Positions 7,832-18,818 of a stretch of 39,914 nucleotides of DNA are shown here, piece by piece. Numbering within the stretch: position 1 is the first letter of the stretch; each line of letters starts with the position of its first letter. The DNA comes from Gammaproteobacteria bacterium (GTDB lineage: Bacteria > Pseudomonadota > Gammaproteobacteria > Acidiferrobacterales > UBA6901). Where the stretch lies: the NCBI GenBank assembly GCA_016218345.1, contig JACREH010000022.1:1-39914 (forward strand). The letters are read 5' to 3'. A program made the translations under genes and the position numbers. The notes beneath the pieces were generated by a model. The model was given only the letters and a program-made list of their open reading frames with translations. It searched no databases and was not told the DNA's origin.

Positions 7832-9007
7832 ATGAAAAAATTCACGCCTGTACTTCTGCTGTTGTTCTGTGTCTGCGCCATGGCCGATCCCGGTCTGATA
7901 ACGCCGTCCAATGGTGGGCCGGTGTCGCGGGAGGCGGGAAGCCGGGAGCGGCCCCCGCCCAGGATCGACGCCAAATCCTGGATGGTCGCCGACTTCCACA
8001 GCGGCCAGGTGCTGGCGGAATATCGCGCCGACGAGCGCATCGATCCGGCCAGCCTCACCAAGCTCATGACCGCCTATGTGGTGTTCAAGGATTTGCGCGC
8101 CGGCAAGTTCAAGCTCGGCGATTCCATCAAGATCAGCAACACCGCCTGGCGCATGCCCGGCTCGCGCATGTTCGTGCGCGCCGGCAGCGCGGTGAGCGCC
8201 GAGGATTTGGTCAAGGGGCTCTTGATCCCATCCGGCAACGACGCCGCCGTGGCGCTCGCCGAGCACCTGGCCGGCAACGAAACCGCGTTCGTCGCGCGCA
8301 TGAACGCCGAGGCGCGGACCTTGAGTCTGGTCAACACCCGCTTCGCCAACAGCACCGGCCTGCCGGCGGCCGACCACTACAGCAGCGCGCGCGACCTCAC
8401 GCGCCTGGCCGGGTTTCTGATCCGCGATTTTCCCGAGTACTACCACTGGAACGCCGCCAAGGAATATAACTACGGCGGCATCACCCAGTACAACCGCAAC
8501 GCGCTGTTGTGGCGCGACGGCGGCGTGGACGGCATCAAGACCGGCCACACGCGCGCCGCTGGGTATTGCATCGTCGCCTCGGCGACGCGCGACAAGATGC
8601 GCCTGATCTCGACGGTGCTGGGCGCGCCCAGCGAACAGGCCCGCACCGAGGCCGGCCGGGCGCTGCTCGACTTCGGTTTCGACAATTTCGAGACCCGCCT
8701 GCTCTATCAGGCCACCGTCCCGGCCACCGAGGTGCGCGTGTGGATGGGCGAGACCGAAACGCTGCCGGTCGGCATCGGCCGCGACCTCTATCTCACCCTG
8801 CCGCGCGGCGCGCACACCAAGCTCGAGGCCAACGTCGCGGTGAAAGACGCCCAGGCCCCGATCCGCCTCGGCCAGCCGCTCGGCACGCTGAACCTGAGTC
8901 TCGACAAAAAAACCATCGCCGATTATCCGCTGGTGGCGCTGCGCGCGGTCGACAGCGGGAATTTATTGCAGCGCGGCATGGATAGCGTGCGGTTGTGGTT
9001 TAAATAG
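7832..9007 (+). CDS. dacA: D-alanyl-D-alanine carboxypeptidase (PBP5/6 type)
   Basis: 391 aa with signal peptide, DPASLTKLMTAYV (SxxK), SGND, KTGHT motifs. Confidence 0.95.
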   Translation: MKKFTPVLLLLFCVCAMADPGLITPSNGGPVSREAGSRERPPPRIDAKSWMVADFHSGQVLAEYRADERIDPASLTKLMTAYVVFKDLRAGKFKLGDSIKISNTAWRMPGSRMFVRAGSAVSAEDLVKGLLIPSGNDAAVALAEHLAGNETAFVARMNAEARTLSLVNTRFANSTGLPAADHYSSARDLTRLAGFLIRDFPEYYHWNAAKEYNYGGITQYNRNALLWRDGGVDGIKTGHTRAAGYCIVASATRDKMRLISTVLGAPSEQARTEAGRALLDFGFDNFETRLLYQATVPATEVRVWMGETETLPVGIGRDLYLTLPRGAHTKLEANVAVKDAQAPIRLGQPLGTLNLSLDKKTIADYPLVALRAVDSGNLLQRGMDSVRLWFK

Positions 9008-9049
9008 GTCCTGGCGGACAGGTTGTTTGTATCGCTCACGCGATGAATT

Positions 9050-9478
9050 TTATTTTGCGGTTCCCGCACCGCGGGCGGGGTACTTAGACTCAGACCCTCC
9101 CTGGTCTTCGCCCTGACGGGCAGACCTTAAACGGTCTGTCCAAATTCGCTCCCAGCGAATTTGTCTTGTCGCGACAAGACCCGTTTGCCGGGAGCAAACG
9201 GGCGCCGCGCGTAAGCGCGCCCGTAAGGGGCCACACCAGGGAAGGTGCAGCGCAAAGTACCCAAAGAAGCGCCTCCCCTCCGGCGCGACTACCCCTGCGC
9301 TTCTCGACCGAGGCGGGGGTTGGCCGACAGGACTGTCCCTGTCCTGCGGCCAACGCGCGCCTCCCGGGCGCGCCCCTGGCGGGCCTGATCCACCTCGGCC
9401 TCCGATGCTCGGCGCGCCGGAAAGGGGGAACGTCAACACCTTCAAACCAACCCCCGAACGTCAAAAACCTAAACCCAA
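9050..9478 (-). repeat. Hairpin-rich repeat element, copy 1 (inverted relative to copy 2)
   Basis: Reverse complement aligns with 9479-9800: shared ggcccgccaggggcgcgc core, shared gggtttagg start, shared position of a GGAC-loop hairpin. Confidence 0.7.
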
Positions 9479-9800
9479 GGGTTTAGGGTTTTGGATTTCG
9501 GGTTCGGTTTTAGGTTTAGGTGTCGCCCCTTGAGTCGCACCGAGCACCGCAGGGCGGCGAGGATAAGGCCCGCCAGGGGCGCGCATGGGATGCGCGCGTT
9601 TTTCGCAGTACACGGACGTACTGTCGAAAAACCCCCTCGCCGGCCGAGGAGCGCAGGGCACCCCTTACCAAAGCGCAACGCGCTTTGGTAAGGGGTGCGA
9701 CGATGGGGCAAAATGGCTTTGGTGACTTTCGCCGAAACGAAAGTCACTCGTGCGCGCGGCGAAACGCGCATGAAAAATGACATCGCCGGAGGCGATACAA
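9479..9800 (+). repeat. Hairpin-rich repeat element, copy 2
   Basis: Head-to-head with copy 1; perfect hairpins at 9659-9697 and 9722-9747; further hairpin at 9599-9631. Confidence 0.7.
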
Positions 9801-9852
9801 AACCCACAAACCGCTACAATATCGAGCCTAAGGCCCGCAAACATTCCCGCTC

Positions 9853-10728
9853 ATGGATTTCTACCCGATCAAACAGGTGTACTTAAACGGCGCGTTCGTC
9901 GCGCCCGAGGCCGCGCAGGTGTCGGCGTTCGACCGCGGCTTTGTGTTCGGCGACGGCGTGTACGAAGTCATCCCGGTCTACGGCGGCAAGGCGTTTCGCC
10001 TGCCGCATCACTTGCAGCGCCTGGAGGCGAGCCTCGCCGCCATCGGGCTCGGCAATCCGCTCACGCACGCCGAGTGGGGCGCGGTGTTCGCGCAACTCAT
10101 CCGCGCTCATGACGGCGGCGATCAATCGATTTACTTGCAAGTGACGCGCGGCGTGGCGCCGCGCGACCATGCGTTTCCCAAGGACACGCCGGCCACGGTG
10201 TTTGCCTTCTCGCAACCGCTCAAGCCGCCCGAGGCCGGGCAATTGGCGGGCGGCATCGCCGCGATCACCGTGCCCGACAACCGCTGGCAGCGCTGCGACA
10301 TCAAGGCGATCGCGCTGCTCGCCAATGTGCTGCTGCGCCAGCAGGCGCAGGCACGCGGCGCGGTCGAGGCGATTCTGATCCGTGACGGGTTTCTCACCGA
10401 GGGCGCGGCCAGCAATATCTTCGTGGTGCGCGCCGGACGCCTGCTCACCCCGCCGCGCGGGCCGTTCATCCTGCCCGGCATCACCCGCGATCTGATCCTG
10501 GAACTGGCGCACGCCCACGGCATCGACTGCCGGGAGAGCGCGGTGAGCGAGGCCGAGCTGCTGAGCGCCGACGAACTGTGGATGACCAGCTCGACCAAGG
10601 AGATCCTGCCGATCACGCGCCTGAACGACCGGCCGGTGGGCGCGGGCCAGCCCGGGCCGTTACAGGCGCGCTTTCGGCAACTCTACGAGGAGTACAAGCA
10701 GGCGTTCCGCGCCGGCCAGGCCGAATGA
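9853..10728 (+). CDS. D-amino-acid aminotransferase (class IV PLP aminotransferase)
   Basis: 291 aa, fold-type IV signature (FDRGFVFGDGVYEVIPVYGGKAFRLPHHLQRL; LIRDGFLTEGAASNIFVV); follows dacA. Confidence 0.9.
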   Translation: MDFYPIKQVYLNGAFVAPEAAQVSAFDRGFVFGDGVYEVIPVYGGKAFRLPHHLQRLEASLAAIGLGNPLTHAEWGAVFAQLIRAHDGGDQSIYLQVTRGVAPRDHAFPKDTPATVFAFSQPLKPPEAGQLAGGIAAITVPDNRWQRCDIKAIALLANVLLRQQAQARGAVEAILIRDGFLTEGAASNIFVVRAGRLLTPPRGPFILPGITRDLILELAHAHGIDCRESAVSEAELLSADELWMTSSTKEILPITRLNDRPVGAGQPGPLQARFRQLYEEYKQAFRAGQAE

Positions 10729-18069: not shown

Positions 18070-18818
18070 GAAAAAATGGGGACATTCTACTTTTCCCTTG
18101 CCTACCCCGGCCGCTACACCTAGACTGCCCGCATGCCCCGCACTGCCCGCGCCTCGGTCGGCGGTCTTTGTTACCACGTCCTGAACCGTGGCAATGCCCG
18201 TGCGGAGGTGTTTCACGACGAGGCGGACTACCGCGCCTTTCTCGATCTGTTGAACGCCGCCGGCCGGCGGGTGCCGATGCGCGTGCTGGGTTTTTGTCTC
18301 ATGCCCAATCATTTTCATCTGGTGCTTTGGCCGAGGGCCGGTGAGGACCTGTCGCGTTACCTCCAGTGGCTGCTGACCGCCCACGTGCGCCGGTACCACC
18401 GGCGCTATCGCTCCTCCGGTCACGTATGGCAGGGGCGGTTCAAGGCCTTTCCGATCGATCGCGATGCGCATTTGCTGACCGTCCTGCGTTATGTCGAACG
18501 CAATGCCCTGCGGGCCAAGCTGGTGCGCCGGGCCGAGAACTGGCCGTGGTCGAGCCTTGCCTCCCCACGGGCCGGGTTTCTCCACGACAGCCCCGTCCCC
18601 CTGCCCCGGAACTGGATCGTCCGGGTGAACGCGCCGGAGACCGCGGCCGAGTTGGCGGCGCTTCGACAGAGTGTCAACCGCGGCACACCGTTTGGCATGC
18701 CCGCATGGGCCAAACGCACGGCGGAACGCCTGGGGTTGGAGGCGAGTCTGCGGCCACGGGGGCGACCGCGGAAGGGGGTCGCGGTCGGCTCGGAAAAGTA
18801 GAATGTCCCCATTTTTTC
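18070..18818 (+). mobile_element. RAYT/IS200-like insertion element with 27-bp perfect terminal inverted repeats
   Basis: Left end gaaaaaatggggacattctacttttcc (18070-18096) equals the reverse complement of 18792-18818. Confidence 0.85.
18133..18801 (+). CDS. REP-associated tyrosine transposase (RAYT / Y1, IS200-like)
   Basis: 222 aa; MPRTARASVGGLCYHVLNRGNARAEVFHDEADYRAFL, LMPNHFHLVLWP (HUH), YVERNALRAKLVRRAENWPWSS. Confidence 0.95.
   Translation: MPRTARASVGGLCYHVLNRGNARAEVFHDEADYRAFLDLLNAAGRRVPMRVLGFCLMPNHFHLVLWPRAGEDLSRYLQWLLTAHVRRYHRRYRSSGHVWQGRFKAFPIDRDAHLLTVLRYVERNALRAKLVRRAENWPWSSLASPRAGFLHDSPVPLPRNWIVRVNAPETAAELAALRQSVNRGTPFGMPAWAKRTAERLGLEASLRPRGRPRKGVAVGSEK

Follow-up and report, generated by a model that had tools for sequence, protein, structure and literature searches.

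A dispersed two-armed element with oriented GGA-loop hairpins, possibly encoding CsrA-type RNA modules, in a gammaproteobacterial genome

The gap between dacA (end at 9007) and an aminotransferase gene (start at 9853) in a 39,914-nt stretch of gammaproteobacterial DNA (contig JACREH010000022.1, the window) was found to be occupied by a 776-bp composite element of two opposed arms, which recurs throughout its host genome. The explanation tentatively preferred, on sequence comparison, is that of a MITE-like dispersed chromosomal element whose arms would encode CsrA-type RNA modules. Dispersed repeats are commonly viewed as junk or as typing tools; here a precise branched fold, along with a pair of oriented CsrA-type loops, persists in many families of bacteria despite change in nearly all of the stem sequence. 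If transcribed, the element would couple a global regulator to the number of repeat copies and offer a test case for mobile DNA building regulatory networks. It also allows hairpins shaped by template switching to be separated, within one element, from hairpins apparently held by selection.

Extent and parts of the composite element

The boundaries of the element were determined by aligning its ends over approximately 30 places in the genome. The aligned copies have the common ends TTTGTATCGC...GCGATACAAA, located at 9026–9035 and 9792–9801 in the window. A preliminary description of this DNA had correctly reported an element in the gap, but with wrong bounds (9050–9800): the unit is 9026–9801 and is limited by a perfect 10-nt inverted repeat (TTTGTATCGC, 9026–9035 on the forward strand and 9792–9801 on the reverse strand), which is retained in most intact copies. 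The left repeat starts a terminal hairpin plus T-run. Nine terminator-like sites were recorded (1.5 expected), two of which face inward at the element ends (9030–9045, and 9798–9780 on the reverse strand), and the promoter scan gave no promoter-like site. Eight ORFs in the gap yielded zero Pfam matches; protein-coding content was consequently dropped, in line with the earlier judgement that the gap holds no convincing gene.

Arm A (9026–9478, reverse strand) has its head at 9478 and its tail at 9026, and arm B (9479–9801, forward strand) has its head at 9479 and its tail at 9801. The proposal that the two halves are inverted copies was borne out, with 78% complementarity over 95 nt and 78% over 41 nt, and 75% by blastn over 366 nt. 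The halves align as described, but the reverse half holds an extra module (9086–9253), an optional palindrome at the apex of the arm A P6 hairpin that is absent from most copies. The heads differ between copies, so the start gggtttagg that the two halves share is no family trait.

Each arm folds into a closing stem, P1, enclosing hairpins P2, P3, and P4. The core domain P1–P4 of arm B (9540–9658, forward strand; 120.4 bits with R2, and pair counts) consists of P1 (9552–9562/9635–9645), P2 (9569–9571/9576–9578), P3 (9579–9585/9591–9597; loop TGGGA, 9586–9590), and P4 (9598–9611/9618–9632; loop ACGGAC, 9612–9617). The core of arm A (9293–9412, reverse strand; 109.7 bits with R2) carries a P4 hairpin with a GGCC-type stem and the loop AGGGACA (9320–9353) and a P3 hairpin with the loop CGGGA (9355–9373). 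Both P4 hairpins lie where the preliminary description had placed them. The RNA folding z-scores of the two cores were −4.8 and −5.3, the latter for arm A. Towards the tail of arm B, on the forward strand, the core is followed by P5 (9659–9697), a near-perfect palindrome with an unconserved, invertible loop (22 copies compared), by P6 (GTGACTTTCGCCGAAACGAAAGTCAC, 9722–9747), of all parts the one best conserved in sequence between organisms, by the GC-rich tail hairpin P7 (9750–9771), and by the terminal hairpin P8 (ATCGCCGGAGGCGAT, 9782–9796).

Copies and distribution

The host genome is a 1.85-Mb draft with 80.6% completeness. Each half of the element was compared with it by blastn, giving 69 and 66 matching pieces, which merged into the approximately 30 places used above, and the 119-nt core domain was found 42 times. 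Thirty of the 42 core domains form 15 head-to-head pairs, and no tail-to-tail pairs were found in this genome. In a rough, ORF-based count, all scored copies were intergenic, and the flanking gene ends were 3′ ends in 31 of the 46 cases scored (p=0.026, likewise ORF-based and rough); many copies, including that in the window, lie upstream of a co-directional gene. Several contigs break off inside copies, an expected outcome where a draft assembly meets repeats. Two solo arms (L016 and L020, on contigs C35 and C85) share the same right-hand flank, which perhaps reflects a strain variant or a duplicated assembly region.

No target-site duplication was evident in the flanks of the copies, and the empty sites in a congener were too diverged for the junctions to be defined. 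No linked transposase was seen beside the copies. Among the solo ends, C16 holds a single arm, and contigs C38 and C108 have no more than small fragments of the ends; no transposase was seen there, and an autonomous parent element was dropped as a candidate for these three places.

Among 274 sampled genomes of the class, a covariance model built from the host alignment (R1, from alignment A1, described below) detected the domain in 26 (host included), usually in several copies each. When the search was widened to the phylum (299 genomes, model R2), 14 were matched, every one of them in the same class. The domain has homologues in other families. One of these genomes (G065, another family) contains an element of 720–780 bp with copies up to 94% identical, and two of its filled sites correspond to short gaps in a congener (G327). 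In G065 and G220 the arms stand tail-to-tail, whereas those of the host stand head-to-head, which makes pair orientation a lineage-specific trait. Searches of plasmids, phages, and viral contigs returned no copy, and an origin from any of these was dropped.

Conserved fold, oriented loops, and the P5 palindrome

Conservation of the fold was assessed on two alignments: A1, a sequence-based alignment of 35 arm cores from the host genome, and A3, which comprises 53 members from many families. Four helices were supported in A1, with 95.1% of the cells paired (39–48% in slid controls) and two-sided changes at 16 pairs. In A3, which was fitted to a covariance model, a procedure that favours pairing, 92.4% of the cells were paired (61.2% in shuffled and 32–47% in slid controls), two-sided changes were present in 37 of 37 pairs, and the covariation score was 0.712 (0.167 shuffled). 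Covariation is thus far above both types of control. Hairpin alleles are common to both arm types (GGCC-type P4 stem, 10 A and 4 B arms; TTTTT-type stem, 7 A and 14 B arms), so part of the covariation within the host genome reflects whole-hairpin exchange and not many single events. The nearest member outside the host, from a Solemya symbiont (93 bits), differs largely in the stems of P1, P3, and P4 and adopts the same fold in the absence of any model (z=−6.6).

The P5 hairpin serves as an internal control for how such pairing can arise. In 22 copies it forms a near-perfect stem of 16–19 pairs with very different sequences (386 Watson–Crick, two G·T, two A·C, and one T·T among the cells), and its loops are unconserved, AAC/GTT, TAC/GTA, and AGA/TCT occurring in both orientations on similar stems. 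Homogenised inverted-repeat arms and inverted spacers are known products of template switching (PMC8604942), which also maintains hairpins (PMC8794818). P5 bears the footprint of a template-switch-like process; covariation alone is therefore no proof of function and was dropped as such. The compensatory changes that had been taken as a sign of maintained structure do support it, but changes on both sides of a stem are insufficient by themselves to prove selection. The P5 of the window and those of the 21 other copies also constitute a natural set of spacer inversions.

Stronger evidence for selection is provided by the bias towards one strand and by the oriented GGA loops; of these, the preliminary description had noted only a kept GGAC loop. 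When A1 was read on the head-to-tail strand, 25 G·T cells were counted against 3 A·C cells (p=3×10⁻⁵, with cells treated as independent). Across genomes (A3), GGA is located within the P3 loop in 49 of 52 cases and within the P4 loop in 52 of 52. In A3 and A4 together, A(N)GGA is present in 121 of 130 GGA hairpins, its A being retained regardless of the opposite base, and GGA is followed by T in only about half of them; the two GGA motifs are spaced 26–29 nt apart in 51 of 62 pairs, with approximately 28 nt being typical. The form CA(N)GGA(U/A/C)G is matched by 98 of the 130 hairpins. Inverted P3/P4 loops, carrying TCC, were found in 0 of 35 host arms and in 2 of 69 sequences elsewhere. Such loop orientation and such asymmetry between G·T and A·C are unexpected for palindromes important solely in their double-stranded form, and loop conservation together with the tolerance of G·T in P1–P4 points to selection on one strand. 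The element shows a palindrome-keeping mutational process combined with a one-strand constraint in P1, P3, and P4.

These results also bear on the proposal that the palindromes are neutral, that is, selfish or decaying DNA in which polymerase template switching produces the covariation by homogenising stems and inverting loops. P5, with its near-perfect pairing and its loops in both orientations, is what this proposal predicts, and the mutational process itself is documented in the two studies cited above; the P3 and P4 loops are, however, not inverted, and G·T is tolerated far above A·C in P1–P4. Neutrality is accordingly regarded as an improbable account of the element.

Candidate function, alternatives, and related cassettes

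The P3 and P4 loops resemble CsrA/RsmA sites: their consensus matches the CAGGA(U/A/C)G element repeated in the hairpin loops of CsrB and fits the SELEX site RUACARGGAUGU (PMC7652899). Under the preferred explanation, the arms would be transcribed either from the head junction outward or through read-through of neighbouring genes; the RNA of each arm would offer two putative CsrA sites approximately 28 nt apart and might titrate CsrA or place flanking mRNAs under CsrA control. This explanation is favoured by the multiple copies, the head-to-head pairs, presence and absence between sister species, the deep conservation of the fold, the strand bias, and the CsrA/RsmA-like loops. It is weakened by the lack of a promoter-like site, by the lack of a firm CsrA match in the incomplete host genome and in four other drafts, and by stems longer than those of the SELEX winners, which mostly have four pairs or fewer (PMC7652899); furthermore, the strand bias fits single-stranded DNA equally well as RNA, which counts against a reading in terms of RNA only. 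The explanation is also favoured by a finding in P. putida, where a long palindromic stretch between genes and the intergenic flanks of ISPpu8, which may belong to this family, were pulled down in vivo with Rsm proteins (PMC7937890).

The CsrA gene was not found in the host genome (at its 80.6% completeness), in G178 (95% complete), or in G094 and G154, and G219 gave a weak sub-cut-off match only; it is present in all searched element-bearing genomes with a completeness of at least 98%. Co-occurrence with CsrA was dropped as evidence: with CsrA found in 234 of the 274 genomes of the class, it has no power. More speculatively still, the element could belong to a class of mobile-like elements widespread on gammaproteobacterial chromosomes and equipped with a conserved CsrB-like RNA module, through which the load of copies would act as a distributed CsrA sponge or seed new CsrA-controlled mRNAs.

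Recognition of one DNA strand is a real alternative. The element would then be a single-stranded-DNA mobile element, its one-strand hairpins being recognised by a transposase or recombinase acting in trans as in REPINs and BIMEs, with the GGA loops as recognition marks and with no need for an RNA function. The opposed pairs, intergenic dispersal, and terminal hairpins all fit, as do the lack of a clear target duplication, the empty sites, and the one-strand bias. On the other side, no transposase was present in the copies examined, the consensus of the loops is that of a known protein–RNA site, and the one gene for a Y1 transposase that the genome yielded has its own, unrelated inverted repeat. 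We consider this reading less probable than the preferred explanation. The Y1 gene in question, which is RAYT-like, lies in the window at 18133–18801, with the 26-nt inverted repeat AAAAAATGGGGACATTCTACTTTTCC at 18071–18096 and 18792–18817. Because it bears its own ends, a RAYT-driven REP was ruled out.

Least probable is a portable terminator or insulator in which the inward-facing hairpin and T-run at each end would stop transcription from flanking genes and the interior would be a passenger: the excess of terminator-like sites and of flanking 3′ ends speaks for it, but it leaves the deep conservation of the P1–P4 domain and its loops unexplained, and many copies, that of the window among them, lie upstream of a co-directional gene.

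The element was compared with known systems. MITEs such as QMITE1 and QMITE2 of Coxiella burnetii (PMC5896051) are likewise short, non-coding, multi-copy, and mostly intergenic, with terminal inverted repeats, and QMITEs yield small RNAs (PMC5896051); the present element differs in its pair of opposed arms, both of which contain a deeply conserved domain of several hairpins. Neither target duplication nor parent transposase was found here, the search for the latter covering Y1 transposases. REP, BIME, and REPIN sequences (PMC3733652, PMC3116915, PMC2817692) are also palindromic, intergenic, and often opposed dimers, comparable with the 15 pairs seen here. REPs, however, measure 20–40 bp and bear a GTAG or CGTC tag, whereas the arms described here measure approximately 300–450 bp with no tag conserved in the alignment, and the RAYT-like gene of the window is not linked to the element. 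CsrB/CsrC and RsmX/Y/Z (PMC7652899) similarly present several hairpins with A(N)GGA loops and the consensus CAGGA(U/A/C)G; these RNAs come from a single dedicated gene or a few, whereas the element is dispersed, has longer stems, and carries two A(N)GGA loops in each arm.

No Rfam family was matched at the gathering score by the element and 18 relatives, sub-threshold matches being weak and scattered, and a known RNA family, CsrB/Rsm included, was dropped. The R0–R200 repeats of Pseudomonas fluorescens (PMC2718517) are likewise multi-copy and intergenic, several have inverted repeats, and they are found preferentially where the 3′ ends of two genes face each other; two of them, R200 (320 bp) and R26 (352 bp), have the length of an arm, a comparison made by description. 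The element is thus undescribed in Rfam and in the literature searched, within its incomplete coverage, and part of the superfamily may already be catalogued under another name. The initial reading of a structured, possibly undescribed repeat or mobile element is supported.

Xanthomonas, Lysobacter, and others share the tail stem P6. In relatives of this type the same flanks, CCGAGCAYCGCAG and GAGNAGCGCAGGG, often surround another interior hairpin, which bears the motif TGTYTGAGCG-AGCGAGTT, and the interior of P1 looks like an exchangeable module. At six loci (L085, L114, L103, L106, L168, and L226) the outer flanks and P1 are kept, and P2–P4 are replaced by one TGTYTGAGCG-AGCGAGTT hairpin. 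The P6 core was additionally recorded at L090, L091, L107, and L100 in MAGs labelled Nitrospirales and Planctomycetota, which may reflect transfer or binning error. A smaller cassette of two GGA-loop hairpins (for example GTACAGGGATGTAC and TTGCAGGATGCAA) recurs as an insert within or next to these elements in several genomes (L188, approximately 1645–1700; L248, 1692–1840; L061, L067, L068, and L075).
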